From assembly GCF_003058465.1 (NCBI RefSeq), contig NZ_CP028901.1:2170001-2234000 (forward strand): 64,000 nt of DNA, written 5' to 3'. A program made the translations under genes and the position numbers. Position 1 is the first letter of the stretch; the number at the start of each line of letters is the position of its first letter. The notes below the pieces were generated by a model. It was not told the origin of the DNA and did not search any database. It saw nothing but the letters and a program-made list of their open reading frames with translations. This document shows, piece by piece, positions 1 through 22,904 of this stretch. This stretch comes from Orrella marina (GTDB lineage Bacteria > Pseudomonadota > Gammaproteobacteria > Burkholderiales > Burkholderiaceae_B).

Positions 1-1792
1 CAAAATCCTTGTAGCTCTCGCTGGCTACCACAGTCAGCACATTCACATCGTGTACCGTGGCAGGGTGATCCATCCTGTCACCGCTCTGATTGACGGACAG
101 CCGCAAGCCACGTCCCACCTCCTGACGACGGGAAATCGTGTTGTCACTGTGCTTGAGAGCGCAGATCACGAACACGTTCGGATTGTCCCAGCCTTCGCGT
201 AAAGCGCTATGCGAGAAGATGAAGCGCACGGGTTCGGATAATGAAAGCAAACGTTCTTTGTCCTTCAGAATCAGATCATAGGCATCTACATCATCGGACA
301 AACCGGCATTCTCGCCGCGCGCTGCAACCTTTGGGTCGGCCAGCCGCTTGCTTTTCTTGTCAATGGAAAAATAGCCGCTGTGAGTCTTGTCGGCAGAAAT
401 ACCCTTTAGGTACTTGATGTACGGCGTCTCATCCTGATCCAGCACCTCGTTAAGATACAGCAGGTATTCTTCCTCGAAAACACGGGCGTACTCACCTTTT
501 TCGTCAGCCGAGGCGTAGTCACGGTACTTGGCTACCTCGTCGATGAAAAAGAGAGTGAGCACTTTCACGCCTTGCTGGAATAGCACCTGTTCCTTGTCGA
601 AGTGCGCCTTTATGGCTTCGCGGATCTGGATGCGGCGCAGCACGGCCTCTGTTACGTCCCCTGTTGCATCTCCGACATTAAGCTCGACCCCGTTGGTGAA
701 GCTCAGGGTATCTGTATTCGCGTTGATATCGGCAACGACGAAGCCATCGCGGTACTGATCCAGCTCGTTAGACAGCTCGAACAGGTTGTCACCTTTGCCC
801 AGCTTGCGAACAACGCGTTTGATACTTCCGCCTGCCAGCTTCTGCTCGAACTCCACCCGCGCCTCGGGCGGTTTCTTGCTGAAAATCTCGATGGATTGCA
901 GGTACAGATAACCTGCCGTGCCTGTCAACCCTTTCACTGAAATACCGCGAACAGCGATTTTTTTCACCAGCTTCTGATTGTAGGCGTCCAGCGCGTCGAG
1001 GCGGTGAATCTTGTTGTGCGTGGTCTTGTGGGTGGCCGAGTAGCGCAGCACCATCAGTGCCTTGAATTCCTCCAAGGACTTTAGGGTAGCGGCACCCTCC
1101 ATCTTCTGCGGCTCATCCAAAATCAATATCGGCCGGTTGGCGCTGATCACATCAATCGGACGGCGAGACTGGAAGTCATCCAGCACATCATAAATGCGGC
1201 GGTTGTCCTTCCCTGTGGCGTTGAATGCTTGCACATTAATCACCATCACGTTGATGCCTGCGTCGGACGAAAAACTCTCCAGGTGGTGGAGCTCCTTTGA
1301 GTTGTATATGAAAAAACGGACCCTCTTGTGGTAGCTCTCCAGAAAGTGGTCAGCGGTGATCTGCAACGACTTGGCCACACCCTCGCGGATGGCGATGCTG
1401 GGCACTACGATGATGAACTTGCTCCAGCCGTACAGCTTGTTCAGCTCGAAAATGGTCTTGATATAGCAGTAGGTCTTACCCGTACCGGTTTCCATCTCCA
1501 CGTCCAGATTCACGCGAGCGATTTTGGTCTTGGCCAATGCATCGGAAACGGTCAGGTTCTGTTGGCGTTGTACCTGCTGGATGTTGTCGAGCAGGGTGGA
1601 ATCTGACAGTAATAGGTCGGCGTTTTTGAAACCCGCGTCGGAAAACAGACTATCTGTCTGCGCTTTGGATTGACCGGGATCGATGCGGTAACTGATGGCT
1701 TCGCTGGATGCCGGCGGTTGCCCCTTGAAGCAGTCGACCACCGCTTGTATGGCGGCGGTTTGGTAGGCTTGGGTTTTGAACTTCAGTTTCAT
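1..1792 (-). CDS. res: Type III restriction enzyme Res subunit (partial)
   Basis: ATP-dependent translocase/endonuclease subunit of a type III restriction-modification system; it acts in the cytoplasm with Mod to cleave unmodified DNA. About 597 residues are visible, starting [20 protein letters not shown]; the frame stays open to base 1, so the C-terminus, where the nuclease domain normally lies, is outside the window. Seen: Walker A-type motif METGTGKTY near residue 100, motif II as DEPQKMEG (a DEAD/DEAH variant), a SATH motif III, and near the window edge a helicase motif VI-like QEVGRGLRL. The ATG at 1792 follows an AGG-containing stretch. It is the last gene of the defence operon, about 100 bp after the AlbA_2 gene. 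Confidence 0.93.
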
Positions 1793-1818
1793 CGCAACAC
1801 CTGCCTTTCTTTCTGCAT

Positions 1819-1847
1819 CCTTTCTGCAACCCCAGGCTGCAGAAAGG
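1819..1847. repeat. Intercistronic 10-bp inverted repeat
   Basis: CCTTTCTGCA (1819-1828) and TGCAGAAAGG (1838-1847) are perfect complements separated by 9 bases, so the mRNA between the AlbA_2-type gene and res can form a hairpin. No T-run follows on the minus strand, so it does not look like an ordinary intrinsic terminator. It could attenuate or stabilise res mRNA; that role is inference. Confidence 0.55.
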
Positions 1848-1895
1848 AGTAAGCCATTGATTTACATGAATATGAATCAAAAAACCTTACTACAT

Positions 1896-3566
1896 TCATT
1901 CTGCAAGCCTCCACAGTGGCTGCCCCCGGCTACCAGTGTTGGTAATCCGTCCAGCGCGTCGCAACTTGGTCAGCAGGTTGCCTATTTTTTTCTCTTTCTG
2001 CTCTGCACCTAGGGCCTCGCTCAACTTGTCCAGCAACAGTGTGTTGATCTCGGCACGGCTTGCCTGACCAAACTGCTCTAGATAATCCATCACCAACTTG
2101 GCGTAGAACTCGTCGTCCTGCGCGCGGGTGCGGATATAGTCAGCTTTATTAGCTGTTGCTGAAGCAATGACGGCAGAAACGAAGTAGTTGGGTTTACGCC
2201 CTTCGATCAGCCCTCCCTTGCGCAGACGAGTCGCCGCCTCGTCCGGGATAGGCAGCTTCTTTTGCACTCGATCCAATGCCAGCACGTCCGCCAATGGCAG
2301 GTTGGTCTTCTGAATCAGCAAGCGGCTATAAGCGATGTCCACCACACCGCCATACAAGGTCAGTTTCACCGCCCCTGGTTCGCTCAGATCGTAATCCGGC
2401 ATTGGGAAATAACGCCGAGCCTGACCGACATACATATCGCGGATGCCGTAGCCCATCGTATCGATCATGTTCAGCTCGGCCATCGCCTGCGCTAGAAATG
2501 GATTGCGGTAGCGGCGAGGGACTTTGGTGCCTTCGACGTACTCATCCGGCTGGCCGTCGAAGAACCCCCCTTCGTTCGCAAAGATCAATCGATCCGGCTG
2601 CTCCGTGACCACCACACGGCCATTGCGGCTGTAATCCTGATGGGCGATGCAATTATGCAAGGCTTCAAGAACAATCTTCTGGTCATACTTCGGCACCTCC
2701 ACCGGCAACAGCTCATGCTGCGGCAAGATGCGTAGTTGTATATTGCGGATACGCTGATAAAGCTGGGTCGTGTTGAGTAGAAAGGGCAGGCCAAAGTGCT
2801 CATAGGCACGTTCAGTGCCTTCCAGACTCCAGGTTAATTGTGCCGGATGCGGTGAAAGCCGCCAGGCCGATTCGGCCTGGCCGAGCAGCAGTAAAGTGGT
2901 ACGGGTGACCTGGCCCTCCTGGGTCAGACGAGCACGGTCAAGAAACGCCGTCAGGGGCCAGCTCATGGCTTCTTCAAGCGTGATGCGATTGGCGTACTTC
3001 TGGGCAAAGGATTCCCGGGCTTTGCATACAGCCGCCTCATCCAGATCGTCCAACGTGGCACCAGGGACGATTTGTGCCGTCCAGTCCATGGCCAGAGTCT
3101 GATGGCGTATTTCATCTTGTTTGTCAAGACCGAGCGGCGCACGGCTTTCACCCGCCCTGGCGTAGTAATGACCTTTCCAGGCAATGGGAATGCCGCGCGG
3201 CGCTGCCGGAATCTCAAACAGCACTACACGACCCTTTTCATCACTCAGCACATGAATATTGCGAAAGGTGATGCTGGGCTCAGTGTTTTGGGCAATTTGA
3301 GTCTTCAGACCGTGCAGACGCTCCGGCTCGGGACGGTAATTCGTTCCCACAACCGTACGGGTCTTGTCATTGACGCCGAAAACCAGCCAGCCACGCTCCG
3401 AGCCCCGCAGATTGGCTTCATTACTCAAGGCAGAGAAATACTCACCGATCTTGTCCGTGTCATAGTCGTTGCCCGCCTGCTTGAACTCCACCACCTCGTT
3501 CTCCCAGGTGGCAATCAAGCGCTCCAGTATGGTTTTAAGCTCCAATGAATCCATGTGCGCTCTCAA
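1896..3566 (-). CDS. AlbA_2 (Schlafen-like) / RecG-C-like ATP-binding protein
   Basis: A 556-residue protein of the family often labelled ATP-dependent DNA helicase RecG-like. The N-terminal ~160 residues fit the AlbA_2 domain (VVEFKQAG, ALSNEAN, GWLVFGVND). The middle has the HATPase_c_4-type segment (VLEALHNCIAHQDYS, FANEGG, GYGIRDMY). It lacks RecG helicase motifs. Members are frequent passengers of restriction-modification loci and are suspected nucleic-acid-binding effectors; the exact role is unknown. A TTG at 3566 overlaps the mod stop (TTGA), giving translational coupling; an ATG at 3554 is the alternative start. It lies between mod and res, so it is probably co-expressed with both. 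Confidence 0.85.
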   Translation of the reverse strand: MRAHMDSLELKTILERLIATWENEVVEFKQAGNDYDTDKIGEYFSALSNEANLRGSERGWLVFGVNDKTRTVVGTNYRPEPERLHGLKTQIAQNTEPSITFRNIHVLSDEKGRVVLFEIPAAPRGIPIAWKGHYYARAGESRAPLGLDKQDEIRHQTLAMDWTAQIVPGATLDDLDEAAVCKARESFAQKYANRITLEEAMSWPLTAFLDRARLTQEGQVTRTTLLLLGQAESAWRLSPHPAQLTWSLEGTERAYEHFGLPFLLNTTQLYQRIRNIQLRILPQHELLPVEVPKYDQKIVLEALHNCIAHQDYSRNGRVVVTEQPDRLIFANEGGFFDGQPDEYVEGTKVPRRYRNPFLAQAMAELNMIDTMGYGIRDMYVGQARRYFPMPDYDLSEPGAVKLTLYGGVVDIAYSRLLIQKTNLPLADVLALDRVQKKLPIPDEAATRLRKGGLIEGRKPNYFVSAVIASATANKADYIRTRAQDDEFYAKLVMDYLEQFGQASRAEINTLLLDKLSEALGAEQKEKKIGNLLTKLRRAGRITNTGSRGQPLWRLAE

Positions 3567-5419
3567 ATACTCTTCACTTCTGTACCCGGTGAGAGCAGTT
3601 TGAAGATCTGCTCAACGTTGATCTTGACGTCATCACTCTTGAAGCCCGCATCACAGAACACCACGCGCAGTGGCTGATGTTTCGCCAGCTCTTTGACAAA
3701 ATCTTCGTCGATACCGCCGTGGGCATCGAAGCAGGCGGTTAGGGCGTTGTCATCGACAAAGAACACGTCCATACCCTGAATGCTTTGCTTTTCGATGGGT
3801 AGGGCAAGATCAACACCCCAGTCCAGCATGACCTGGAACAGCAGATCTTCCGCTGTGCGGTCGGGCTTGATGTTGTCGACGAATAGGTCGAGGCTGGCTT
3901 TGTCCAGAGCATCGGGGGCGTAGTAGACGTCAGCCATATTGGAGGTGTCGATTTTAAGGACGCGGAAGCCAACATCGGGGCTATTTCTGCCCACAAAGCT
4001 TTCACTAGCACGACGAATGCGATTTTTGGTTATATCTGATATGGCTTTGTAGCCCGCGTTGAAAGCTGCGGAATCTTCGCTGCATTGCTCGGGGAGCTGG
4101 ACCATAATGAATTTTCTTTCTCCCCCATCTTTCCCGTTTACAGCCATCGTAGCATGTGCGGTTGTACCTGAACCTGCAAAGAAATCGAGCACAATGCCAT
4201 TTTTGTCACACGCCCACTCAACAATTCGTTGGAGAAGGGCCACACTCTTTTCGGTGTCAAATTCTTGAGTTTCATTTCCACTCAAAGTGATGTCCATCCA
4301 GTTATCACTTAGCAACCTCCCCTCACTTGGTGGCACGTAGTATTGAATGGTACCTTCGTCGTTTTTCCTGACAAAATTCAATTTGATATTTGTTGATGTG
4401 AGGTGATCAATAAAATATTCATCAAGCGACAAGCCACTCTCGGCTTGCGCCAAATATTTGTTGTAGTTATCGACAGCCTCCAATGAACGTGACTTCTCCC
4501 AACGCCACTGCCCGGATTCAGGATGTACGCCGAGCAACTCATAGCGCATTGTTGGTCGGTCAGTTCCTCGCCAAAAGGTGTCCCACTTCCCAGGCTTTTT
4601 GTCTTCGTGTGCGAGTGAAAGCTTGGGCAACCGCACTTCAGAGTTTTTTGAATAAAGTAAAACGTATTCGTGTCCTTGAGAGAGAGAACTTACATTGTCG
4701 AACTGAGCTTGGACATTCTTGATTCCTCGTCGGACTGCGATCGTATTTTTGTGACTTCCTTCTCCAAAAACTTCGTCGCATAGCTTCCTGAGGTTGTGGA
4801 CCTCGTGCGAATCTATGCTGATAAAAATCAATCCATCGTCGGCTAGAAGATTTCGTGCCAACTTGAGACGAGGGTAAATCATGCTCAGCCAATCGGAATG
4901 GAATCGTCCATTTGCTGCAGTGTTGGCGATTAACCGATTACCTTCTTCATCCTTTTGATTTGAGCGGCGCAAAAATTCTTCTGTACCTTCTGCAAAGTCG
5001 TCCTCGTAGATAAAGTCATTCCCGGTGTTATATGGCGGATCGAGGTAGATCAGCTTCACTTTGCCGAGATACGTCTCCTGTAACAACTTCAACGCATCGA
5101 GGTTATCGCCTTCGATGAACAGGTTCTTCGTGGTGTCGAAGTCCACGCTCTCTTCACGACAAGGGCGCAGCGTCTTGGCAATCGGCGCATTAGCCATCAG
5201 CAACGCCTCGCGCTTGCCCGGCCAGTTGAGGTGGTAGCGTTCTTGTGGGCCTTCCACAATAGCGTCGGACAACTCCTGTCGGAGTTGATCAAAATCCACA
5301 GCAAGCTTCACGCTGCCATCTTCCCCCTGTGCCTCGGTCACGCAGCCTGGAAATATCTCGCGAATGCGGGCGATGTTGTTTTCGGTCAGGTTGGGTGAAT
5401 GCATTTTTAACTTGTCCAC
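3563..5419 (-). CDS. mod: Type III site-specific DNA methyltransferase Mod
   Basis: Modification and target-recognition subunit of a type III system: it transfers a methyl group from SAM to adenine (N6) in an asymmetric site and also directs Res. About 618 residues, normal for the family. Motif IV DPPYNTGNDF is at residues 127-136, and motif I FAGSGTTAHA comes about 290 residues later, the beta-class order. The segment between is the target-recognition domain and is more AT-rich than its flanks, as expected for a swapped TRD. The start may be GTG at 5419 or ATG at 5404; neither has a strong ribosome site. The adenine specificity is family knowledge, not read from sequence. Confidence 0.95.
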   Translation of the reverse strand: MDKLKMHSPNLTENNIARIREIFPGCVTEAQGEDGSVKLAVDFDQLRQELSDAIVEGPQERYHLNWPGKREALLMANAPIAKTLRPCREESVDFDTTKNLFIEGDNLDALKLLQETYLGKVKLIYLDPPYNTGNDFIYEDDFAEGTEEFLRRSNQKDEEGNRLIANTAANGRFHSDWLSMIYPRLKLARNLLADDGLIFISIDSHEVHNLRKLCDEVFGEGSHKNTIAVRRGIKNVQAQFDNVSSLSQGHEYVLLYSKNSEVRLPKLSLAHEDKKPGKWDTFWRGTDRPTMRYELLGVHPESGQWRWEKSRSLEAVDNYNKYLAQAESGLSLDEYFIDHLTSTNIKLNFVRKNDEGTIQYYVPPSEGRLLSDNWMDITLSGNETQEFDTEKSVALLQRIVEWACDKNGIVLDFFAGSGTTAHATMAVNGKDGGERKFIMVQLPEQCSEDSAAFNAGYKAISDITKNRIRRASESFVGRNSPDVGFRVLKIDTSNMADVYYAPDALDKASLDLFVDNIKPDRTAEDLLFQVMLDWGVDLALPIEKQSIQGMDVFFVDDNALTACFDAHGGIDEDFVKELAKHQPLRVVFCDAGFKSDDVKINVEQIFKLLSPGTEVKSI

Positions 5420-5480
5420 TACTCAATCTCTTCTTAAATGGGTGTTATCGACCCTGACATGACAACAGGCTGCAGGCGCC

Positions 5481-6890
5481 TTATTCGTCACCCTCACTCT
5501 CAAATTGCTTCAATTCTGAAAATTTGGCCTTCATAGTGGGGTTACCATGCGTCAATTTGTTGATCGTCACGTCCTGCGCCTTATTGTTAGCCAAGCGTAG
5601 ATTGCGATCAGTGCTCAACAAAGCATCCTTGGTTTTCTGCAGGTGATCGATCGACTTATCGATCTCTTCGATAGCCTTCGTGAATTGCCTGGAAGCAAGA
5701 TCGTAGTTCCTTTCGAACCCTGTTTTGAATGCCTCCAGCTTGCTTTCAAAATTGGTAATGTCGATATTCTGGGCCTTGACCACTGCTAGTTCCGACTTGT
5801 AAGCTAGGGACTTAATCGCCGCGTTACGCAACAATGTGATGATTGGAATGAAGAACTGTGGTCGGATGACGTACATCTTCGGATATCTATGAAATACATC
5901 GACGATTCCGGTGTTGTACAACTCGCTCTCGGGTTCTAGCAGGGAAACCAGAATGGCGTATTCACAGCCTTTCTCTGTACGGTCCTTGTCCAGCTCCTTT
6001 AAGAAATCTTCGTTCTTCTTTTTGGTGGCGGTTTCATCGCTCTCGTTCTTCATTTCGAACATGATTGAGACGATTTCGGTGCCATCCTCATCTAAATCCC
6101 GAAAAATATAATCGCCCTTGCTACCGCTGCTCACGTCGTTGTCTTTTTCGAAGTAGGCTCGCGGAAAAGCCGTGGCACGAATGCGGTTGAATTCAGTCTC
6201 ACAGTGCTGTTCTAAGGTTTCGCCGACCATCTTCGTCGATAGTCTGGCCTTCATATCCCTAAGTCGCTCGATTTCGTGCTCGCGATCCTTGATCTGTATT
6301 TCGTATCTTTCTTTCAGAGACTTCTCAGCCAGATCCTTCTCAAGCTCTTTGCGCTGCAGGCCATTCTTCAGCTCATCACGCTCCTTTTCAACTGCATTCA
6401 CGGCCTCAGTCACCGCAAGCCTATGCGCAACATTGTTTGCATCCAGTCTCGCTTTCAGATCTTGTATTTCTGCATCTCTTGCAGCCGTTGCTTTCTGCAA
6501 TTCAATGGTCAACTTTGTTTCTGCCAAGGCAGATTCAGCTTGCTTATCGCGTTGCGCTTGAGCTAGATCATTGGCCAGCGCGTCACGCTCTTTTTCCACC
6601 TTGCCCAGTGCTTCGGCCACCGCGAGCTTGTGTGCAACCTCGGTGGCATCAAGTCTGGCCTTCAGGTACTGTAGTTCTGCGTCTTTGGCAGAAGCAGCCT
6701 TCTGCAACTCGCTAGTGATCTTGGCCTGAGCAAGCTCAATCGCATTACGCTTGTCCTCTTCGGCCAACTCCAATCGTTCATGCAACTGCTTTTCAAAATC
6801 GCTGTCGCGTACTTGCTTCAGTATGTCCGCATACCCAGCCTCATCAATCTTGAATGCCTTGCCGCAGTGGGGGCAGATGATTTCGTGCAT
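5481..6890 (-). CDS. DUF2130 coiled-coil protein, putative PD-(D/E)XK nuclease
   Basis: A 469-residue DUF2130 family protein. It begins with a small zinc-ribbon-like CPHCG (residues 6-10), followed by a long charged coiled coil (about 30-225). That coiled coil holds an internal duplication: residues ~58-109 and ~127-178 match at 35 of 52 positions. The DUF2130 core follows, with G-D-Y at 259-261 and F-E-M-K at 278-281, a spacing typical of PD-(D/E)XK nuclease folds (D...ExK). The biochemical role is not established; nuclease activity is inference. Its start is 2 bp from the stop of the OLD-type gene, so the two are a tight pair inside the defence operon. Confidence 0.85.
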
Positions 6891-6892
6891 AG

Positions 6893-8773
6893 TTACTCTC
6901 CCGTCGCCTTGGCCAAGATTTGCAACAGCATCTCGGGCACGTCACCTTCTGCCCTGAGTGTTGCCGTGCGGTATGCAAGTTGATTTTTTGCAAGACTAAT
7001 GCCTGTATTGATCTCTAAATCTTGACAGGCGACAACCCAGGTCTCCCACTTTTCGGATAAAAATCCCTCAAGGTGATCGTCTAGAATTGCCACATTCTCA
7101 GCCACCCTAGCTGCCGGAAAATCCTCTTGATCCAACCCGAAGTACTGAAGTAGTTTTCTATTCTCTTTTGCGTTCTGATTGCGTTCACTATCAATTTTCT
7201 GCTGTGTTTTCCCACTAGCTGTTGCACGCGCTACACAACCGGTGTCTGCATCAAAGAGAGCATATGCAGGAACGCCTATCGAATCCAAAATTGCGTGCGC
7301 GAGTGGAATTGAAGTTTTTCCTCCCACGAAGACTATGGATACCCCTGCCGCTTCAAGCGAACCGGGAGAGAGTCTATCGCCAAGACCGTAAAAAATAGAT
7401 GACTCTGTTGGACCTTCCACAAGAAAGGCTCGGTTAGCGAAGAGTGCGATAGCCAACTGGTCAGCTACATTGTGGTCAAGTCGACGGTCGACCACCTCGC
7501 CATCCACGATCCCGTGCAGCTTGGCCTTCACGTCCGTCATAGTTGCATAGTGAACAGAAACGACCGGAATCTCATCAGTCGATCTCGTCAGCCGCCTGAT
7601 TTGATCAAAATGACGCGGTTCAAGAAAGTATGGACTATGCGTAGCATAAGTTACTTGAATACGTTTTTCTGTATCTTCGGCCAACGAGCGGAGTACCTTT
7701 GCAAAGGCTTGTGCTTGGATTGGATGCTGAAAGAGTTCTGGTTCTTCAATTGCCAAGCAAATGACCCCTTCTGCTGAGGCCGCACCGGACTGCGCCAAAA
7801 GCTGGAGTGCTGAAATCAAAATCGTGCGCTGAAAACCATGACCTTGCCGTTCTACAGCGGTCTCAGTTGTACCATCTAGCACAGCCACTTCGAATGTTGT
7901 CTTTGGAGCTTTGAGCTCTACGTCTGCTGGAGACACGGTAACGGAACGACCCGGCGAATAAGACGAGACAACATAATTGAGCTGCGCAGTAATTGAAACA
8001 AGTTGTTCCTTAAACTTTTCTTCATAAACTTTTTGCTGTTTGGTGCGAGACTCTTCGACAATTTTTGCTATTTCTTCATCAGCAGCCGTGCGATCAATTG
8101 AACGCTCAAGAATTCTGCCTATGATGCTAGACTTTCCGTCAAGAGACTCTTCGCTTGCGCGAAGATCGGCGGTAACCAAGACGAAGTCGAAGAGACCGCT
8201 CATCTTGCCGCCACTGTTGAAACCGAAAAAGTTGGTTTGCAGTGCTTCAGGTGCATCGATAAGCTGATCCGTGTGATCTGCTTCCCATGCCACCATTGCT
8301 TGCTCAACGGCTGCGCCGCTGGTGACCGCAGGCAGATCTAGGTCTGGTCGATCACGCCGAAGCGAGGCGTACAAATCTTTCTTTGCTGTAGCGGTGCCTG
8401 CCGCCTTAATCACATTGAAATCTGGAAAGCCCTTTGCGTTTGCCGAAAGAATATCGGAGCCGTCAGGTGAGCGACGCTTCCAAGCTGTAAACGTGGCTGC
8501 GCCTTCCGGTGCATACTTTCCAAGCGCCCCTCGATCTTTTTCAGTGAGATCGGCGAATGTGATCTGAACTTCGATATCTTCGTCAATCGCTCCAAAAGAG
8601 CAGTCTTTCTCTGTCAGAGAGCCAGGTTTACCATTGAAGAACCAATCAAGAGCACGAAGTACGGTAGATTTCCCTGCACCGTTTGGTCCTATGAAGGTCG
8701 TAACAGAATCGAAAGGGATTGTCACATCCTTCAACGTGCGAAAATTTTTGATACGAACGGATTGAATCTTCAT
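6893..8773 (-). CDS. OLD-family ATPase with C-terminal TOPRIM
   Basis: A 626-residue ATP-dependent endonuclease-like protein of the OLD family. The N-terminal ABC/SMC-type ATPase has Walker A GPNGAGKS (residues 29-36), a Walker B region ([14 protein letters not shown]) and an ATHSPYF H-loop. The C-terminal TOPRIM shows FLVEGPTE and the DxD motif FDADTG. Class 2 OLD proteins (GajA-like) usually pair with a UvrD-like helicase GajB; none is adjacent, so the DUF2130 gene 2 bp downstream may be the partner. It follows DUF4391 after about 18 bp. Phage defence by nucleic acid degradation is the likely role, from family and context. Confidence 0.9.
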
Positions 8774-8791
8774 TTCGGCTCCTTGAATTTA

Positions 8792-9460
8792 TCACTTGTT
8801 CTTTTTGAGTTCGTCCAACTCAGATTTCAGCCTCCGCAGTTCGGCATTGATTTCCACCTTGCGGTTGAACTGTTTCTCCTTGGTCAGCCGCGCCGTGGTC
8901 TTATCCATCTCGCGCTGCTTGGTTTGTGCCTGTTCGACGCGCGCCACCAGCTCGGCCAGTGTTTCCTGTGGCCGAGCTGACAGTGGGATCAGTCGGTGCA
9001 GCAATTGCTCGTACAGGCCGCCCAGATGCAGGGCTACGGGCATCGCGGTGCGTTCGCTGTTCATGACCAGCCAGCTTGATGCAAAGTAGTCCGAGAGCAC
9101 CCAGCGGCTGGCATCAGCTTCGTTCGGGCGTTTGTAGGCGGCAGTCACCTGTGTCTGGCTATCGAAAGACAGCTCGAACACAATGGGGAACGGGATGGCC
9201 CCATCGATGCAGCGCAGCACATCGGCGTGCAGTTCTGGCGTTTTGAGATGGATGCTGAAAATCTGGATTTCCGGCACGCCAGGCCGCGCAGGAAGGTTGA
9301 TTGTTTCCGGGGCCAGCTTGTATTGCCACACGATCTGCTCCACCTGCTCAACAAACAGATCCTTCAACCGGGTGTTAGCCCCGCTGTGCTCGTAGATCTT
9401 GTTCTTGGGTAGAACGCGTCCGAAGGCTGCTTGCTTGGGGTAGGCAAATAAGGCGCTCAT
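8792..9460 (-). CDS. DUF4391 domain protein
   Basis: A 222-residue protein matching DUF4391, a family encoded next to SNF2-type helicases in type III-like restriction loci. A globular N-terminal two-thirds (FAYPKQAAFGRVLPKNKIYE, VFELSFDSQTQVTAAYKRPN) is followed by a predicted coiled coil in the last 60 residues (LAELVARVEQAQTKQ, INAELRRLKSELDELKKNK). Its ATG overlaps the helicase stop (ATGA, 9457-9460), which implies translational coupling and probably a complex with the helicase. No catalytic motif is visible and its function is unknown. Confidence 0.85.
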   Translation of the reverse strand: MSALFAYPKQAAFGRVLPKNKIYEHSGANTRLKDLFVEQVEQIVWQYKLAPETINLPARPGVPEIQIFSIHLKTPELHADVLRCIDGAIPFPIVFELSFDSQTQVTAAYKRPNEADASRWVLSDYFASSWLVMNSERTAMPVALHLGGLYEQLLHRLIPLSARPQETLAELVARVEQAQTKQREMDKTTARLTKEKQFNRKVEINAELRRLKSELDELKKNK

Positions 9461-12400
9461 ACAGATTCCTGAATCACAAGGAAGCTGATGAGCTCGAAGT
9501 CGTCAAGTCCGGAGATGGTATCAGTCAGCGCCGTGGTCTTACCTCCGCTGAACAGGCTGTCTAAATCCTTTTCCTCCTTCACCTCGATCATCGACCGGAT
9601 GGACTTTCCCAATAGATCCGAGTAAAGCTGCATCCGGCGGCCATCCGCTGTTTCCTGATTGAAGCGCTGGCACACGGCAACGATGGGTTTGTCCTGGCCC
9701 TTGCAGCAGGTACGCACCAGGTCAAGCAGGCGTTTGACCTCCGTGTGATCATGGATGACCTCACCCTCGCGGTTGATATAGACCAGGTAGTACGGATGCA
9801 GGCGGTTGTGTTGATTGGGGCTGATTCCGGCATTGCGATTGCGCAATGTGAAAATTGCACCTGGCAGCAGGCCCATCGCAGGTCTCGCCGCAACGACAGC
9901 GTGCATCCCGTTAGGCATGGTGTTCAGTTCACCATGGGCTTTGACGTAGTTAAGCAAATCCATGCGGAAGTCGTTGAGGCCCAGGTCCGTAATCGAGACT
10001 CCGGTCTTCAAATCTTCCAGCTCGATGACTTCCTCCTGCAGGCGACGCAGTTGCTCCTTGCGGTACGACACGTCGTTGGCCTGCGCAGACAATACGTTGT
10101 CGTCACCCGTCGCGGTGACATCGGCGATCATCATCCGACTCTCGACGCGTTCTTTGAGGTTAATGTACTCATCGAGCGAAATATCGGGCCAGTAGTTGAC
10201 CAGCTGAATACTGCTATTAGGGGAGCCAATTCGATCTATCCGGCCAAAGCGCTGAATGATGCGAACCGGGTTCCAATGGATGTCGTAGTTGATCAGGTAA
10301 TCGCAGTCCTGCAGGTTCTGGCCCTCGGATATACAGTCGGTGCCGATCAGCAGATCAACCTCGTGCGGCTCGTCCGGCAGCACCACCGCCTTCTCTTTCG
10401 AGCGAGGAGAGAACAGGGTGAGTAGCTCCTGGAAGTCATAACTGCGCTTGTGGGTTCTGCTCTTAATGGTGGACTGCGGCGCACCCGAGCCTGTGACTTT
10501 GGCGGTGTGGATGCCGAGTGTCGCCAGCAGATCAGGCGCGAGGTTGGCGTATAGGTAATCAGCGGTGTCAGCAAATGCTGTGAAGATCAGCACCTTTCTG
10601 TTGCCGGGGTTGATTGGGTTTGCAATCTTGCCGAGCAGTTGCGCTTTGAGGTGCTGCAACTTGGCGTCGTCCTGCGGCGTGATCTTGTTCATCGAAGCCA
10701 GCAAGGCATCGATGACCTGTAAGTCCACCTTCAGTTCGTGCTCCCAGGACGGCAAGTCCATGTCGGCGAGGCTGATCTTGATCTTGCTGCCGATCTCGCC
10801 GCCCTCGTCGCCGGGCATTGACAGGTCATCATCGTCTGCATCCAACCCTTCCAACACTTCCGTGAGGTCCCCCACCGTGACCGCGCCGCCGGATTGATTG
10901 AACGCGGCGATCTTTGCGAGGGTGGCTTCGTTGTTGGTCCGCAGTGATTGCAGCGTTAGCCTGAACGATTGCACCGAGCTTTCAAGCCGTTTGAGCAGGT
11001 TCACCGTCATCAGGGCCTGGAGACTCTTTTCGCGGTCGGCTTGACGCAGCGTTCCCTTAACGCCGACCTTGGTGTCGTAGATCTCCTCGTACTTCTTCAG
11101 ACGGCTAGGTAGGATGTAGCTGATGGGCGCATACACGGCCAGCTTGAGCAGGGAGAGTTGCTCGAAAATTTCGTTGAAACCCAAAACGTCCGACCTCGCG
11201 GTCAACGGGCAGTGAAACGACAGCGGTTTGCGGCGCTCCGGAAATTGACCGATGTCCTTGGTATCGTAGAAGGTCTGGATGTGCTTACGCGAGCGTGCGA
11301 TGGTGACGCTGTCGAGCAGTTCAAAGAAATCGAAGTCCAGTGAGTCGAGGATCGCACGCGCGGTACGTTCTTCCGGGGGGAGCTTCGACCACGCATTGAA
11401 GGCTGCTTGTGCGCCCCGAAAGATCTCCTCGACGCTTCTGTCCGTGCGCAGTTTTTTTGTGAGGTTTTCGGAGTCGCCTTCGTAGGCCAGCGCCAGCTGG
11501 TTGCGCAGGTCGTTAAAGCGATTGTTGACCGGTGTGGCTGAGAGCATCAGCACTTTGGTCTTTACCCCTTCCTGAATCACCTTGCGCATTAGCTTCTGGT
11601 AGCGGGTTTCCTTATCCTTGTAGGCGTCGTTGTTGCGGAAGTTGTGCGACTCATCAATCACGACGAGGTCGTAGTTGCCCCAGTTGATCCGGTTCAGCGG
11701 TGTACCGAAGGACTCGCCGCTAGTACGGGAAAGATCTGTGTGGCAAAGGACGTCGTAGTTGAACCGGTCGCGGGCAAAGATATTGGTCTTGAGGTTGCGG
11801 TTGTAGTTCAGCCAGTTATCCGCCAGTTTCTTGGGGCAAAGCACCAGCACAGATCGGTTGCGCAGTTCGTAATACTTGATGACGGCCAAAGCGGTGAAGG
11901 TCTTGCCCAAGCCGACGCTGTCGGCAAGGATACAGCCGCTGTACGTTTCCAACTTGTTGATGATCCCGGTAGCAGCATCCTTCTGGTAGTTGAAGAGCTT
12001 GTTCCAGATCAGGGTGTCCTGGTAGCCGGTGCGGTCGTTGGGCAGGACGTCTTCGTCGATGTCGTCGAGGAACTCGTTGAAGATGTTGTAAAGCATCAGG
12101 AAATAGATGCTCTCGGGTGAGTTCTCTTGGTAGACCGAAGCGATGTGCTCGCAAATCTGCGCTGTCACGTCCTCCAGCTTTTCGGGGTCGTTCCAGATCT
12201 GATCGAAGAGGCTCAGGTACGTTGCCGCAAACGGTGCCTCGTCCATCTTGTTGACGAGGTTGGATACCGCATTGCCTTGCTGGTACCCGAGATCGACCGC
12301 AGTGAAGCCATGCAGGGGCATGTAAGCTATGTTAGTGCCTCCTGACTGCACGCAGGCGAACTGCTGCATCGGCGCTTTGGTGCGGTTGCTCTTGAATTTG

Positions 12401-12747
12401 GCCTTTCGCCGTATCCACTGGGCGCACTCCTTGGCTACCGCCCGCTGGGTGAGCTTGTTGCGCAGCTGAATTTCAAACTCACTGCCATAAAGGTTGCGCT
12501 CTCGATCAAGCTTCGGAATGTGGAATTCCTTGCGTTCTTTACGAATCTTGTCAGTGACCTCGTTGGCCACAAAGGTTGGCGAAGTGAAGATGAAGTTCAG
12601 TTCATCGATTTTTTCCAGCTCGTCTTTCAATGCTTCGAAGGCGTACATCGAAAAACAGGACGCTGCGATTTTTAGTCGCGAGTCGAAAATCAAGCTTTGC
12701 TTTAGGTCGTCACCCAAAAGCGTATTGATATTGTCGATGAGTTGCAT
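9457..12747 (-). CDS. SNF2/DEAD-like helicase with PLD-like N-terminus
   Basis: A 1096-residue SF2 helicase, first gene of the defence operon. Residues 1-250 resemble the phospholipase D-like region common in these proteins, without an obvious complete HKD motif. The motor domain starts at ~250: Walker A-type DSVGLGKT at 276-283, motif II DESHNFRN near 365, motif III LSATPVNNRF, then RecA2 with VLIFTAFADTADYL, DCISEGQNLQD and motif VI QRFGRIDRIGS. An acidic insertion (DADDDDLSMPGDEGGE) separates the lobes. It probably translocates on DNA for the DUF4391/Mod/Res system. This would give the operon two helicase motors, this one and Res. Confidence 0.92.
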   Translation of the reverse strand: MQLIDNINTLLGDDLKQSLIFDSRLKIAASCFSMYAFEALKDELEKIDELNFIFTSPTFVANEVTDKIRKERKEFHIPKLDRERNLYGSEFEIQLRNKLTQRAVAKECAQWIRRKAKFKSNRTKAPMQQFACVQSGGTNIAYMPLHGFTAVDLGYQQGNAVSNLVNKMDEAPFAATYLSLFDQIWNDPEKLEDVTAQICEHIASVYQENSPESIYFLMLYNIFNEFLDDIDEDVLPNDRTGYQDTLIWNKLFNYQKDAATGIINKLETYSGCILADSVGLGKTFTALAVIKYYELRNRSVLVLCPKKLADNWLNYNRNLKTNIFARDRFNYDVLCHTDLSRTSGESFGTPLNRINWGNYDLVVIDESHNFRNNDAYKDKETRYQKLMRKVIQEGVKTKVLMLSATPVNNRFNDLRNQLALAYEGDSENLTKKLRTDRSVEEIFRGAQAAFNAWSKLPPEERTARAILDSLDFDFFELLDSVTIARSRKHIQTFYDTKDIGQFPERRKPLSFHCPLTARSDVLGFNEIFEQLSLLKLAVYAPISYILPSRLKKYEEIYDTKVGVKGTLRQADREKSLQALMTVNLLKRLESSVQSFRLTLQSLRTNNEATLAKIAAFNQSGGAVTVGDLTEVLEGLDADDDDLSMPGDEGGEIGSKIKISLADMDLPSWEHELKVDLQVIDALLASMNKITPQDDAKLQHLKAQLLGKIANPINPGNRKVLIFTAFADTADYLYANLAPDLLATLGIHTAKVTGSGAPQSTIKSRTHKRSYDFQELLTLFSPRSKEKAVVLPDEPHEVDLLIGTDCISEGQNLQDCDYLINYDIHWNPVRIIQRFGRIDRIGSPNSSIQLVNYWPDISLDEYINLKERVESRMMIADVTATGDDNVLSAQANDVSYRKEQLRRLQEEVIELEDLKTGVSITDLGLNDFRMDLLNYVKAHGELNTMPNGMHAVVAARPAMGLLPGAIFTLRNRNAGISPNQHNRLHPYYLVYINREGEVIHDHTEVKRLLDLVRTCCKGQDKPIVAVCQRFNQETADGRRMQLYSDLLGKSIRSMIEVKEEKDLDSLFSGGKTTALTDTISGLDDFELISFLVIQESV

Positions 12748-13164: not shown

Positions 13165-14007
13165 TCATAATGCGATCATGTCAGCGACTTGATATCCGAG
13201 GTTTGTGATCTCGAATACTTCTCCCTTATAGCCGCGACCCACAACAAGGTCGTGAGATCTCAGTTGCTCAAGCGCTTCTTCCCATTTCGCGACTTCGCGT
13301 CGGTCCTTTGACTGAATCAGATCCTTTCCATTGGTATGTATGGAGGTCCCTTCCATATCGCGCACCTGGAGAATCGTTCCCCTGGAATCCTTGCTGGCCT
13401 CCTTGAGGAGAATTCTTGCCTCCTGCGCAAGATCAGGGAGCGAAGTGCGCGACTCAATGACAGTAGCGTCAATCGGTTCGGCCTCGGCTACTTGAAATAG
13501 CTCATGCTCGTTCACTTTCAACTGCAGATGTCGATAGAACTTGTTCTTGAACTCAGCATGACTGTCATAGCTCTCGTAGAGACCACGACTCTGACAAGAT
13601 TGTTTGAACTCTTTTAGTTGCTGGAGTTGCACGAGTTCAACTGTATCCATGGCAACGGGCTGACTAGAAAAGTACAGCATGGCTGGCTTGCCAGAGCCAA
13701 TATGTTCCTCTATTTCTTCTACCGTCCCGCTCAAGTGCTTTTCAGTTGGCGTGCCAATCCTAGTCCAGAAGACACCTACGAGAAGATCACACTTGTTTAA
13801 TACTTGACGATTGATGATCTGTTGTGCGGTAGCCCCCATTTCCGGGGACGAATGAGTCTCCCAACCGACCGGAAGTAGGACTGTCTTTCGCGTTCCAGAA
13901 TTGACAGCGTTCCATTCGTAAACCACATCTCGAACAATTGCTCGCTCCGACGCGACATCGCCTGGCGAAGCAATCATCACATTGAACGCAGTTGCTTTGT
14001 AGCTCAC
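13165..14007 (-). CDS. DUF4062 domain protein (TIR-like fold, putative defence)
   Basis: About 280 residues. The N-terminal ~110 match DUF4062: FNVMIASPGDVASERAIV, PVGWETHSSPEMGATAQQII, CDLLVGVFWTRIGTPT, GTVEEIEEHI. DUF4062 has a flavodoxin/TIR-related fold and is often the sensor or NADase-like part of defence or STAND proteins; here no NTPase domain follows. The C-terminus (DLVVGRGYKGEVFEITNLGY) looks like a small winged-helix segment. I place the start at the GTG at 14007 because AAGGAG lies about 7 bases upstream; the frame is open further (to 14073) without a ribosome site. It is monocistronic. Confidence 0.75.
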   Translation of the reverse strand: MSYKATAFNVMIASPGDVASERAIVRDVVYEWNAVNSGTRKTVLLPVGWETHSSPEMGATAQQIINRQVLNKCDLLVGVFWTRIGTPTEKHLSGTVEEIEEHIGSGKPAMLYFSSQPVAMDTVELVQLQQLKEFKQSCQSRGLYESYDSHAEFKNKFYRHLQLKVNEHELFQVAEAEPIDATVIESRTSLPDLAQEARILLKEASKDSRGTILQVRDMEGTSIHTNGKDLIQSKDRREVAKWEEALEQLRSHDLVVGRGYKGEVFEITNLGYQVADMIAL

Positions 14008-14350
14008 TTCCACTCTCCTTGTACGACATAACGTAATGGTAGACTGCACCGAAGCGTAGGCCATACAAGCCACTGCAATCTGACCAAATCTTCTTCCTCT
14101 TTACCGTCAATGGTCACTTAAGTCCAAATCCGACTTGCAAGAATCGCAACAGAATCGACTTGAGATAGTTCTGACCGATTGAATTAGGTTGTTCCTTGAA
14201 CGACCACACCGGGTTGGAAGCTGCCATTGATAACAGTCTGGTTTCGGCCAATAGCCGTCACTGCCGTCGCGCTCTTAATTTCAGCCATATGCGCATCCCG
14301 AACGGCAGCAATAAGGTAAGCAAATTAATCCATGGAATTTGGCGCCACAA
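14008..14350. other. Intergenic stretch with a dispersed repeat copy
   Basis: No convincing gene. The main feature is a repeat-like segment near 14208-14250 (GGAAGCTGCCATTGATAACA followed by GTCTGGTTTCG), which recurs in modified form near 16706-16752. The stretch also holds the promoter region of the DUF4062 gene. Confidence 0.5.
14208..14250. repeat. Dispersed intergenic repeat, copy 1
   Basis: Contains GGTTGGAAGCTGCCATT, a short spacer, ACAGTCTGGTTTCGGCC and ATAGCCGTCA. It matches the copy at 16706-16752 at most positions. Such blocks resemble the dispersed intergenic repeats found in many proteobacteria; I cannot name the family. Confidence 0.45.
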
Positions 14351-19837: not shown

Positions 19838-21190
19838 CTAGACATCAGCCGTATCACTTCTTGGCCGAGCCCAATTGCAGTAACGATGCGTCAGTCTAGC
19901 GTTTGCTGGCACGGTTCTACCACCAACCCAATACTGCTTAATGTGATCAAGCGCGGCGTCGTCTGTAGATTGAATGTGCTGCTTACAAATTGCGCAAGTT
20001 GGATCGACAGCCATCATTTCTTCCTTCAATTTGAAGGTGAAACAGCGCGGTTCCTTCTGACTAATGCCAAGAATGGACTGTAACGATGCCCTCCATTTGT
20101 CAAAGCGCAAAGTTACCGCTTGCACAGAGCTGGTGGACAGCTCTATGGAGTCTATGAATTCTTGATCTTCCGTCATCAGAAAAACTAAGGCTTCTTTCAC
20201 AGAGTCCAAGTTCTGATACACCTTGTTTTTATCCTCTCTTGCGAATGAGTACATCAGGATGTCGTACAAGGAAGTATTGAATTTCTTTGGCTCCCAATAT
20301 CCGTTTGGCTGCCCGTCCGTACCCTTATAGAATCGTTTAAATGAATTTTTGCCAAATGCAGATCGTATTATTTGACATGCATTTTTAAATGCCGACTTTA
20401 GCTCCACGATCTCCTTGTCTGAAATGTCCCTTTTTTCTCTAGCCTCGGAGTTTAGGAAGTTGCGCATAGGCGCTTTATAGTTGAGATAGGTCTTATGATA
20501 GAAAGCACTGAATCGCAGAACCAGCTCTATATCTTTCATGCGTTTGTCGGGTGCCTTAATCCCGCAGATGAACATAAAATCCGGATCTTCTGCCATTTCT
20601 TTGAATGCGATATTGAATTTGCCCCGATACAGGCAGTTTCTCAACTCTTGATCATTCAACTGAACCGAACCTGTATTCAGTCGCTCGAATATTTCGAATT
20701 TAAGATTCTCGCTTGACTCTTTCTGAAACGTGATAGCGCGAATCTTGTAATAGCGAACCCTGTCTTGCAACTCATCAGACAAGTCGCTGAATTTCTTGCC
20801 ATTCAGATCTGAGCATACATTCAAGCTGCTCAACTTAAATATCTTTCCATCTGGAAAATGCCCGTCAATGAAACTGAAAAATGACGTTAATCTCTGCTGT
20901 CCGTCAATGACGTACTCTTTTCCGTCTTTTTCTTCTGACAGGTATATAATTGGTAGCGGAATATGAAGAATTGCAGACTCAATTAGCTTGCTTGCTTTTG
21001 CAGCATCCCATACGTACTGTCGTTGAAAATCCGGCTGTAAGATCAACTTTCCACGCTTCTTCTTATTAAGAAGAGATTCAATTTCTAGATCTCCGCTGGA
21101 GGTGTGAATTCGATTATCTTCTGGCGCAATTTGTACCTCCTCATCACCACCTTCATCAAAGCTAAGATCGTTCTCTTCTTTAGGCAGCAC
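19838..21190 (-). CDS. DUF262 protein with C-terminal HNH domain
   Basis: A 450-residue GmrSD-like protein. The N-terminal DUF262 (ParB/Srx-fold NTPase/nuclease) shows LILQPDFQRQYVWDAAKAS and the hallmark YVIDGQQRLTSFF. The C-terminus has an HNH-type zinc site: CAICKQHI, ALDHIKQYW, HRYCNWARP. DUF262 proteins restrict modified phage DNA or nick DNA. The start is a GTG at 21190 with AAGGAGG five bases upstream. The gene is AT-rich. The frame continues in phase past the TAG at 19838-19840 for 67 more codons, so the protein may have been longer originally. Confidence 0.88.
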   Translation of the reverse strand: MLPKEENDLSFDEGGDEEVQIAPEDNRIHTSSGDLEIESLLNKKKRGKLILQPDFQRQYVWDAAKASKLIESAILHIPLPIIYLSEEKDGKEYVIDGQQRLTSFFSFIDGHFPDGKIFKLSSLNVCSDLNGKKFSDLSDELQDRVRYYKIRAITFQKESSENLKFEIFERLNTGSVQLNDQELRNCLYRGKFNIAFKEMAEDPDFMFICGIKAPDKRMKDIELVLRFSAFYHKTYLNYKAPMRNFLNSEAREKRDISDKEIVELKSAFKNACQIIRSAFGKNSFKRFYKGTDGQPNGYWEPKKFNTSLYDILMYSFAREDKNKVYQNLDSVKEALVFLMTEDQEFIDSIELSTSSVQAVTLRFDKWRASLQSILGISQKEPRCFTFKLKEEMMAVDPTCAICKQHIQSTDDAALDHIKQYWVGGRTVPANARLTHRYCNWARPRSDTADV

Positions 21191-21415: not shown

Positions 21416-22904
21416 TGTTGAAAAACTCCCCGAAATGCACGCGTTTTGGATATCCTAACGTTTAGTCGATAAACGGGTGGGTGCCGTGATGATGGGTCAA
21501 CAAACGGGCGTGCAGGATAAGCTGTTTTATTCCTTCAACCTTGATGATCACGTACCTCGGTCTCACTTGTTGCGTAGTGTTGATCGCTTTTTTGATCTGG
21601 GTGATTTGCGCAAGCATCTCGCTCCTTTCTGTAGCCACACTGGCCGGCCCTCAATTGATCCGGAATTGATGGTGCGTATGCTGATCGTTGGTTACTGCTT
21701 TGGCATTCGCTCTAAGCGCCGGCTGTGCGAAGAAGTCCATCTAAACTTGGCATATCGTTGGTTCTGTCGCCTGGGGCTGGACGATGCAGTGCCTGACCAT
21801 TCAACCTTTTCCAAGAATCGACACGGCCGCTTTAGCGATAGTGAGGCCTTACGCCATGTGTTCGAATCAGTCTTGCGCCGGTGCATGATCGAAGGCCTTG
21901 TGGCAGGCGAAGGGTTCGCTATTGATGCCAGTGTCATCAAAGCTGATGCCAGCCGGGCACGTGGCGTTTCCGGAGTTGAAACCATCGACTGGAGTCAAGG
22001 CGAGTGGCAAAGCCGTGCGGTGCGCGAGTACATCGAAGCGTTGGAGGAGAATAATCCCACCGACGACGACATCCCCGCATCGACAGAGTCGACAACACCA
22101 CCCAAGAATATTTCGTTGACCGATCCGGCAGCACGCTGGACGGCAGCGCCAGGCGGTCCGGCTTTCTACGCCTATTCGACCAACTACCTGATCGATCTAC
22201 AGGCGGGCATTATCGTGGATGTGCAAGCCACGCCGGCCTATCGATCCCAAGAAGTAGAGTCGACCAAGATTATGGTTGACCGGGTCGCACAACGCTTCAA
22301 TCTGAGACCTCGCCGGTTGGTAGGCGATACGGCCTATGGAACGGGCCCCATGCTCGGATGGATGGTCCAGGAAAAAGGTATTGAGCCGCACGTTCCCGTT
22401 TGGGATAAAACCGAGCGCAAGGATGGCGCTTTCTCAACCATTGACTTCGCTTGGGATGAGCAGGCAAACGAGCACCGTTGCCCACAAGGACATGCGTTAC
22501 GCAGAGACAGGCGTGTGTTCAAGAGTCCGCGCGCACGCATCACCAAAGCAGACACGGTTATCTACCGACCTAGCCAATCTGACTGCACTAGCTGCTCGCA
22601 GAAAGACCAATGCTGCCCTAACACGCCAACGCGCAAAATCGCTCGCAGCATCCATGAAGCCGAGCGCAATGTGGCCCGGGCCATCGCCGCAACGCCAGAG
22701 TATCAACAATCACGCTGCGAGCGAAAGAAGGTTGAGATGCTGTTTGCTCATCTAAAACGCATCTTGAAACTGGATCGCTTGCGACTACGGGGACTCTCCG
22801 GGGCACAAGATGAGTTCTTGCTGGCGGCGACTACGCAAAATTTACGACGAATGGCCAAGTGGCTCATGCCAAGCTTTCAAAAGGCACAAGAAATGCCCGC
22901 TTGA
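21416..22904 (+). mobile_element. IS1182-family element, right end missing
   Basis: The left end is taken at TGTTGAAAAACTCC (21416), a terminus typical of this IS1182 subgroup. The transposase is complete, but no inverted copy (GGAGTTTTTCAACA) is found in the several hundred bases after it, so the right end was lost. The element is probably immobile now. Its exact end beyond 22904 cannot be set. Confidence 0.6.
21489..22904 (+). CDS. IS1182-family transposase
   Basis: A DDE transposase of about 471 residues. The DUF772 N-terminal domain (SIDPELMVRMLIVGYCFGIR, YRWFCRLGLDDAVPDHSTFS) precedes the catalytic core with FAIDASVIKADASR, GDTAYG and the C-terminal ERKKVEMLFAHLKR glutamate region. A zinc-like C-x2-C..C-x5-C segment (CTSCSQKDQCC) lies between, as in the family. 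Two adjacent ATGs at 21489 and 21492 are candidate starts. The length is normal, so the enzyme may be active in trans. Confidence 0.93.
   Translation: MMGQQTGVQDKLFYSFNLDDHVPRSHLLRSVDRFFDLGDLRKHLAPFCSHTGRPSIDPELMVRMLIVGYCFGIRSKRRLCEEVHLNLAYRWFCRLGLDDAVPDHSTFSKNRHGRFSDSEALRHVFESVLRRCMIEGLVAGEGFAIDASVIKADASRARGVSGVETIDWSQGEWQSRAVREYIEALEENNPTDDDIPASTESTTPPKNISLTDPAARWTAAPGGPAFYAYSTNYLIDLQAGIIVDVQATPAYRSQEVESTKIMVDRVAQRFNLRPRRLVGDTAYGTGPMLGWMVQEKGIEPHVPVWDKTERKDGAFSTIDFAWDEQANEHRCPQGHALRRDRRVFKSPRARITKADTVIYRPSQSDCTSCSQKDQCCPNTPTRKIARSIHEAERNVARAIAATPEYQQSRCERKKVEMLFAHLKRILKLDRLRLRGLSGAQDEFLLAATTQNLRRMAKWLMPSFQKAQEMPA

Follow-up and report, generated by a model that had tools for sequence, protein, structure and literature searches.

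A type III restriction operon of Orrella marina with a fixed helicase-DUF4391 pair and two slots of exchangeable cargo genes

Type III restriction-modification (R-M) systems of the EcoP15I and StyLTI kind pair Mod, with its DPPY and S-adenosylmethionine (SAM) motifs, with Res, which carries Walker A, DExx and PD...ExK motifs. In its available portions, a 2021 study (PMC8259958) describes, from more than 500 genomes, a helicase-like ATPase encoded immediately 5' of mod and leaves its role open; this superfamily 2 (SF2) helicase has no nuclease motif and lies upstream of mod and res, with Eco86II and BspHIV as examples, the latter with about 140 nt of non-coding DNA in the helicase/mod context. 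Here we analyze an operon of Orrella marina (NCBI RefSeq assembly GCF_003058465.1, contig NZ_CP028901.1) lying in a stretch of 64,000 nt, positions 2,170,001 to 2,234,000 of the forward strand, which we call the window. The operon has the Mod and Res motifs of a type III system but adds a core SNF2-type helicase and a DUF4391 protein and carries cargo at two fixed places. As in PMC8259958, the helicase stands 5' of mod and res, whereas in our loci, which were found through DUF4391, this gene stands between helicase and mod; the available portions of that study name neither DUF4391 nor the cargo. We give a probability of roughly 0.55 to the reading that this is an extended type III R-M system with a fixed helicase-DUF4391-mod-res core and two slots that hold interchangeable back-up effectors.

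Several other described systems resemble this locus in part. According to the accessible excerpts, PrrC, RhuM and Doc are linked to R-M operons (PMC3710099), and type I R-M loci with PrrC and other toxin-bearing R-M operons (PMC3710099, PMC12707154) share embedded effectors with our loci, where RloC-like, Fic/Doc, RhuM and Abi proteins recur; unlike these, the core here is type III and has two slots with separate repertoires. BREX (bacteriophage exclusion) and the DUF499 'BR' systems with auxiliary effectors, as far as PMC12839542 is accessible, also feature HKD + Snf2 helicases, back-up nucleases and OLD modules, but nine proteins scanned here gave no Pfam match to PglZ, BrxC, PglX/BrxX or DUF499; the window helicase scores 84.6 bits to BrxHI. 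DISARM (defence island system associated with restriction-modification) likewise has an SNF2 helicase in a methyltransferase operon, and the window helicase shows weak DrmD similarity, but at 141 bits it falls short of the DrmD cut-off of 610 (NF038317), and the nine proteins gave no DUF1998 (DrmB) Pfam match; its DrmA match of 65 bits is far under its match to the PADLOC model C3a139. An earlier note, made from the sequence letters, had judged the operon to be without pglZ and drmB, in agreement with the absence of PglZ and DUF1998 Pfam matches among the seven operon proteins and with the helicase score below the DrmD cut-off. DUF4391 is nearly absent from the literature we searched, appearing as a single table entry in one paper, and no description of the slots was found in that literature, which took in few subscription journals.

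The operon and its conserved core

The same note had read seven genes as one minus-strand run with overlaps or short gaps, and all of them lie where it placed them, every name with Pfam support:

9457-12747 (-): SNF2-type helicase (HEL), core gene 1; 1096 aa; SNF2-rel_dom 47.6 bits, PADLOC C3a139 'HKD+Snf2' 409 bits
8792-9460 (-): DUF4391 protein, core gene 2; 222 aa; Pfam PF14335 207.8 bits
5420-8791 (-): slot A, the DUF4391-to-mod interval, holding OLD and DUF2130; from comparison with other loci and E. coli strains
6893-8773 (-): OLD-family ATPase-TOPRIM, slot A cargo; 626 aa; AAA_15 145.6, OLD-like_TOPRIM 58.0, PADLOC Old 186.9 bits
5481-6890 (-): DUF2130 protein, slot A cargo; 469 aa; Pfam DUF2130 313.9 bits
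3563-5419 (-): Mod, type III beta-class amino-methyltransferase, core gene 3; 618 aa; N6_N4_Mtase 117.6, MTase_III 713 bits
1793-3562 (-): slot B, the mod-to-res interval, holding AlbA_2; from comparison with other loci
1896-3566 (-): SLFN_AlbA_2 + HATPase_c_4 protein, slot B cargo; 556 aa as listed; SLFN_AlbA_2 67.7, HATPase_c_4 42.3 bits
2-1792 (-): Res, type III helicase-nuclease, core gene 4; ResIII 50.5, REase_III 774 bits (window part)

Helicase and DUF4391 overlap by 4 nt, followed by gaps of 18 nt (DUF4391-OLD), 2 nt (OLD-DUF2130) and 61 nt (DUF2130-Mod). Mod and AlbA_2 overlap by 4 nt if the listed TTG start of AlbA_2 is used, an ATG four codons later being the likelier start, and 103 nt separate AlbA_2 from Res, so that mod does not directly adjoin res here. 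Res is clipped by the window edge, with 597 of its 1017 aa inside; the full gene occupies L003:8739-11792, its remainder L003:8739-10001, and ends 1262 nt beyond the window. Because the complete Res reaches past the edge, the operon measures about 14 kb. DUF4391 was found once in the 4.23 Mb single-contig Orrella marina genome.

DUF4391 was confirmed at 212 places in a scan of GTDB genomes, and the 80 best of these make up our locus sample. All 80 loci (81/81 with the window) have an SNF2 helicase upstream of DUF4391, and mod and res follow DUF4391 wherever the sequence suffices; counting the window, the helicase is present in 81, mod in 78 and res in 71 of 81 loci. Since these loci had been picked by similarity, an even draw of 398 genomes was made from the phylum, and a class sample of 229 genomes was added; the two together supplied 26 further loci. 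DUF4391 occurs in 23 of the 398 phylum genomes and adjoins the helicase in 20, while in the remaining three (G244, G247 and G474) it lies at most 400 nt from a contig end and no helicase was seen. Conversely, 21 of the 398 genomes encode a C3a139 helicase of at least 347 bits, and in 20 of these it stands beside DUF4391; four more have weaker helicase matches (123-185 bits) without DUF4391. The link between the two genes is reciprocal in this sample, and the gene order is not a product of chance. The pair belongs as a constant element to a larger type III system, which bears out the earlier suggestion that the coupled pair points to something larger (80/80 loci, 20/23 DUF4391 genomes). The sole strong helicase away from DUF4391, in G292 (347.7 bits), stands before what appear by eye to be split N6-methylase-like genes; this relative (L185:5954-13237) has an HKD motif that looks intact.

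The class and phylum loci carry mod in 24 and res in 21 of 26 cases, and a contig end cuts off four of the five loci that lack res. DUF4391 exceeded the cut-off in 5/229 class-sample genomes, once as a fragment with a stop (G205), and full-length Res-like genes without DUF4391 were commoner there than DUF4391. The four-gene core is also annotated, in the same order, on plasmids of E. coli, Acinetobacter (mod and res separated by an IS1 element), the archaeon Methanomethylovorans (with one extra gene before mod) and the actinobacterium Mycolicibacterium; in that order, the helicases are 73, 65, 44 and 63% and the Res proteins 69, 54, 36 and 58% identical to those of the window. No cargo-sized insert separates helicase from DUF4391 in 100 loci, the stop-to-stop distance, which includes DUF4391 itself, being at most 805 nt in 94 of them and 1156 nt at the maximum. 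A WYL regulator was considered as a fixed core part and rejected, as 7 of the 81 loci with 1.5 kb or more of upstream sequence have one next to the helicase.

The helicase motifs DSVGLGKT and DESH are present in 93/93 aligned helicases. The alignment of C3a139 to the window helicase covers model positions 163-947 of 948, and the N-terminal part of the protein aligns with a phospholipase D-like (HKD) domain. HxK is the catalytic motif of HKD nucleases; judged by eye, HxK is replaced in all 17 inspected DUF4391-linked helicases with residues at this position, L082 having a gap there. Mod has DPPY at residue 127 and GSGTT at 416, and DPPY is conserved in 82 of 83 aligned Mod sequences, the remaining one being gapped. 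The Res Walker A motif METGTGKT and the nuclease residues D, E and K are found in 75/75 aligned sequences, along with DEPQ and PD...ExK motifs, and residues 1-576 of the 597 aa in the window match NCBIfam PRK15483 with 302 bits, the cut-off of 564 applying to the whole protein. Six DUF4391 residues (P8, K19, E64, P92, K110 and E195) are invariant across 90 sequences. Its AlphaFold2 model, with a mean predicted local distance difference test (pLDDT) score of 94.4, predicts an alpha/beta domain and a C-terminal helical hairpin; none of the fold comparisons matched a known fold, which does not imply that the fold is novel. The tails of DUF4391 vary between loci, but breakpoints between E. coli variants fall in these same tails and we therefore conclude nothing about the tail as a cargo-specific adaptor.

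Two slots with exchangeable cargo

We counted a slot as filled when it held an open reading frame (ORF) of at least 120 aa on either strand; slots of 290-1337 nt that contained no ORF of this size were scored as empty. The window was counted together with the 80 loci, and three of the 26 class and phylum loci (L164, L169 and L173, where the profile left DUF4391 unlabelled) are outside the counts. Slot A is filled in 42 of 100 loci (32/78 and 10/22 in the two samples) and slot B in 33 of 91 (25/71 and 8/20); when empty, slot A is mostly 40 nt or less and slot B often 11 nt. A nameable family occupies 33/42 filled A slots and 32/33 filled B slots. From Pfam and PADLOC, the slot A families are OLD, DUF2130, SIR2 + HerA, a UvrD-like protein of 900 aa, RloC-like AAA proteins, GmrSD, Abi_2, HEC-07, ORF6N and KilA-N, and the slot B families are AlbA_2, DUF1016/YhcG nuclease, Fic, Doc-like, RhuM and PLD. 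Of ten cargo proteins scanned, eight match PADLOC defence models with at least 250 bits (SIR2 538, HerA 869, PDC-S06 626, HEC-07 316, HEC-06 254, PDC-S46 891, AbiD 255 and PDC-S02 478).

The two slots keep separate repertoires. Families seen once and unnamed ORFs do not enter the fidelity count, and the Fic gene in slot B of L024, seen in two scans, was missed in the cargo count; 76 of the 83 family placements involve recurrent families, and 74 of those 76 lie in the family's main slot. The two exceptions are an AlbA_2 in slot A of L007, where mod is in two pieces, and one of three Bro-N genes. Taken as a whole, the operon is a type III variant with a four-gene core and two high-turnover slots, many of which hold defence genes. 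An unnamed ORF of 175-176 aa was also seen in slot A of three diverged cores (L163:6769, and L166 and L175 at 892 and 6843 with DUF4391 turned to the + strand).

Cargo turns over rapidly on a FastTree phylogeny of 93 concatenated cores, in which 18/90 inner branches have less than 80% support. The minimum number of changes is 30 for slot A (89 rows) and 25 for slot B (82 rows), and filled and empty states alone require at least 23 and 21, respectively. Near relatives can be quite unlike: L037 is empty while L044 holds SIR2-HerA-DUF2130, L053 has AlbA_2 and L055 nothing, and L006 is empty next to L009 with an AAA protein. The window's own combination, OLD and DUF2130 in slot A with AlbA_2 in slot B, was found in 0/80 other loci. 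The OLD + DUF2130 pair occurs in 4/80 loci, as well as in E. coli H5 and on an Enterobacter plasmid; slot B of these four loci holds DUF1016 (L004, L010), Fic (L024) or nothing (L013), and L052 has DUF2130 with AlbA_2. The earlier note had allowed that the extra genes might never be conserved together elsewhere: for the trio this is what we observe, while the OLD + DUF2130 pair does recur and AlbA_2 recurs in slot B.

The cargo families differ in how they relate to the core. AlbA_2 distances track the core closely (Mantel r 0.82 with the helicase and 0.91 with Res, n=14), in keeping with a long association. DUF2130 distances moderately track those of the helicase (0.52) and DUF4391 (0.58, n=10) and do not track Res or Mod. 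Co-diversification of OLD with the core was not seen (r -0.27 to 0.06), here with n=6 only. DUF2130 itself occurs with OLD, with SIR2-HerA or alone; on a Bradyrhizobium plasmid it lies away from any restriction gene, and on a Paraburkholderia plasmid (L202:9001-13374) it stands beside a DUF4297 anti-phage-associated protein and DUF87/HerA-type genes, hence it recurs with several defence modules.

Natural variants within E. coli display the exchange at close range. The CFT073 operon is matched in 54 of 5426 E. coli genomes, 44 at 99% or above and 10 at 90-95%. By annotated names, eight of these ten have an ATP-binding domain protein and two (H5 and H6) an ATP-dependent nuclease with DUF2130, and we inspected three of the ten loci (PCP06171, 0H15 and H5). 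Slot A of PCP06171 and 0H15 holds a UvrD-like gene 87% identical to that of L011, the H5 order is helicase-DUF4391-OLD-DUF2130-mod-res, and in CFT073 itself the UvrD-like gene is reduced to its two ends. Beginning at the helicase start, PCP06171 and H5 share 92% DNA identity up to a point 12-24 nt short of the DUF4391 stop, where the likeness breaks off. Similarity is regained 20 nt ahead of mod, at 85% for the initial 586 nt and 91% across the final part of mod plus res. The central portion of mod, the expected site of the target recognition domain, also differs. Among other E. coli forms, a second diverged form is present in 24 genomes, and in 10 a plasmid-type form aligns over most of the query. 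Downstream of the E. coli ABWA45 operon lie TnsA pieces, a Mu-type transposase and a TnsD-family gene (L198:14020-17215).

Two loci without DUF4391 represent a second helicase-bearing type III form, with a DrmD-like helicase. In L126 (5530-17592) a DrmD-like SNF2 helicase (717 bits to DrmD) is followed by GmrSD and then mod and res, and in L204 (6232-16247) a DrmD-like helicase is followed by a transposase and an Abi gene and then mod and res. The helicases of L204 and L205 are 45% identical to that of L126 and stand directly or nearly directly before the methyltransferase gene in L205 and L204. This DrmD-like helicase without DUF4391 may be the one meant in PMC8259958. As L126 and L204 carry genes between helicase and methyltransferase, slot A may not depend on DUF4391.

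Competing explanations

The architecture, meaning the four-gene core, its order, the slots, the slot fidelity and the turnover, is observed and we hold it with high confidence. In the mechanism that we favor, Mod would methylate host sites and with Res cut unmethylated DNA, as members of their families do. The helicase, having lost its N-terminal HKD nuclease motif, and DUF4391 would work as a single inseparable accessory, most likely a further DNA motor directed at the same incoming DNA or at the complex of Mod and Res. The slot genes are probably co-transcribed with the core and are replaced, lost and regained over time. By analogy with PrrC in its type I operon, as given in the available parts of PMC3710099 and PMC12707154, the cargo probably acts when restriction fails or is inhibited; this back-up role remains tentative, and we place it a little short of even odds.

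A number of observations count against this overall explanation. Both slots are empty in 29/71 and 7/20 loci, meaning that two in five cores are cargo-free and that cargo is therefore not required. Only unnamed or reverse-strand ORFs occupy 9/42 filled A slots, and 1/33 B slots holds only unnamed ones. The UvrD-like and 286 aa cargo proteins have weak defence matches of 32 bits each, the window's DUF2130 has zero PADLOC matches and its AlbA_2 only weak ones (best 26.6 bits), and remnant or broken cargo genes occur in slot A of CFT073 and in L068. Slot fidelity can also be obtained by homologous recombination between conserved flanks, without any functional link, and the shuffle in which 0/20,000 permutations reached the observed fidelity treated loci as independent and ignored relatedness. 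L169 is the one clear exception to the core: its DUF4391 match (119-817, 215 bits) lies at a contig edge and the 9.7 kb downstream contain no mod or res. The accessible portions of PMC8259958 report that the extra helicase-like ATPase is dispensable for methylation and for in vitro cleavage. Finally, 5 of 13 type III loci in which no DUF4391 was seen carry Fic, RhuM, Bro-N or AlbA_2 as slot B cargo, which rules out slot B as special to the DUF4391-type system; one of the 13, L123, has a contig that begins at mod, and another is L126 with its DrmD-like helicase.

The strongest rival is that the cargo genes are passengers. The slots would then be neutral landing sites in which defence genes settle because such operons are transcribed and not easily lost; the genes would spread by recombination between flanks and act independently of the core. 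The OLD distances that do not follow the core, DUF2130 copies outside the operon, the E. coli breakpoints in shared flanks, the cargo remnants and the many cores with empty slots all fit this explanation. It is harder to square with the separate repertoire of each slot (74/76), the closed helicase-DUF4391 junction and the close tracking of the core by AlbA_2. Because slot fidelity also fits spread by homologous recombination, the passenger explanation keeps about a third of our belief.

An improbable alternative is a plain type III system in which Mod and Res suffice, with a regulatory or vestigial role for helicase and DUF4391. The dispensability of the extra ATPase for methylation is in line with this, as is the absence of its peptides from a cutting Eco86II preparation (both in the accessible portions of PMC8259958), and one plain mod-res type is found in 193 E. 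coli genomes compared with 54 and 24 for the two chromosomal forms of the DUF4391 system. The helicase motifs, however, are intact in 93/93 sequences, and the pair persists across Pseudomonadota, an archaeon and an actinobacterium. Least probable is the integrated seven-gene system proposed in the earlier note, in which Mod would mark self-DNA and OLD, DUF2130 and AlbA_2 would be dedicated effectors that read the mark: the genes do overlap or lie closely spaced on one strand and OLD does recur with DUF2130, but the three are exchangeable, close cores carry quite different cargo or none, and since the cargo set recurs in 0/80 other loci we conclude that this is not a seven-gene system.

Neighborhood and implications

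The window contains other genes of interest around the operon. Just upstream of the helicase, a DUF4062 protein (13165-14073, -; 25.3 bits, cut-off 24.7) aligns partially with the candidate PDC-S60 (104 bits, residues 30-225). A further nearby defence gene encodes a GmrSD_N + HNH protein (19838-21190, -) that in PADLOC scores strongly against NsnA (304 bits) and more weakly against PD-T4-2_A (153 bits). Transposases and metal resistance genes share the window with the operon: two DDE transposases, a heavy-metal P-type ATPase (YHS, HMBD) and a CopB protein lie at 21477-22904, 30049-31407, 33581-35926 and 41449-42651. Beyond the window, a group II intron reverse transcriptase/maturase is encoded downstream of res (L002:12074-13375, -).

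The accessible portions of PMC8259958 left open, in 2021, the extra helicase in hundreds of type III systems, and in the loci described here the helicase has a fixed partner, DUF4391. The slots offer a positional search for new defence genes, such as DUF2130 or the 286 aa L058 protein, which weakly matches a TIR effector. E. coli itself offers natural variants whose helicase and DUF4391 are nearly identical, so that any mutual dependence of cargo and core can be tested directly in a laboratory strain. A bolder version, which we consider unlikely, is a modular immune platform of bacteria and archaea in which the helicase-DUF4391 pair would sense stalled or blocked restriction and switch on the slot effectors, with DUF4391 as the coupling part; if true, one detection core would be fitted with many weapons. 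The pattern of a constant core and changing slots suggests that an old defence system serves to carry swappable back-up weapons.

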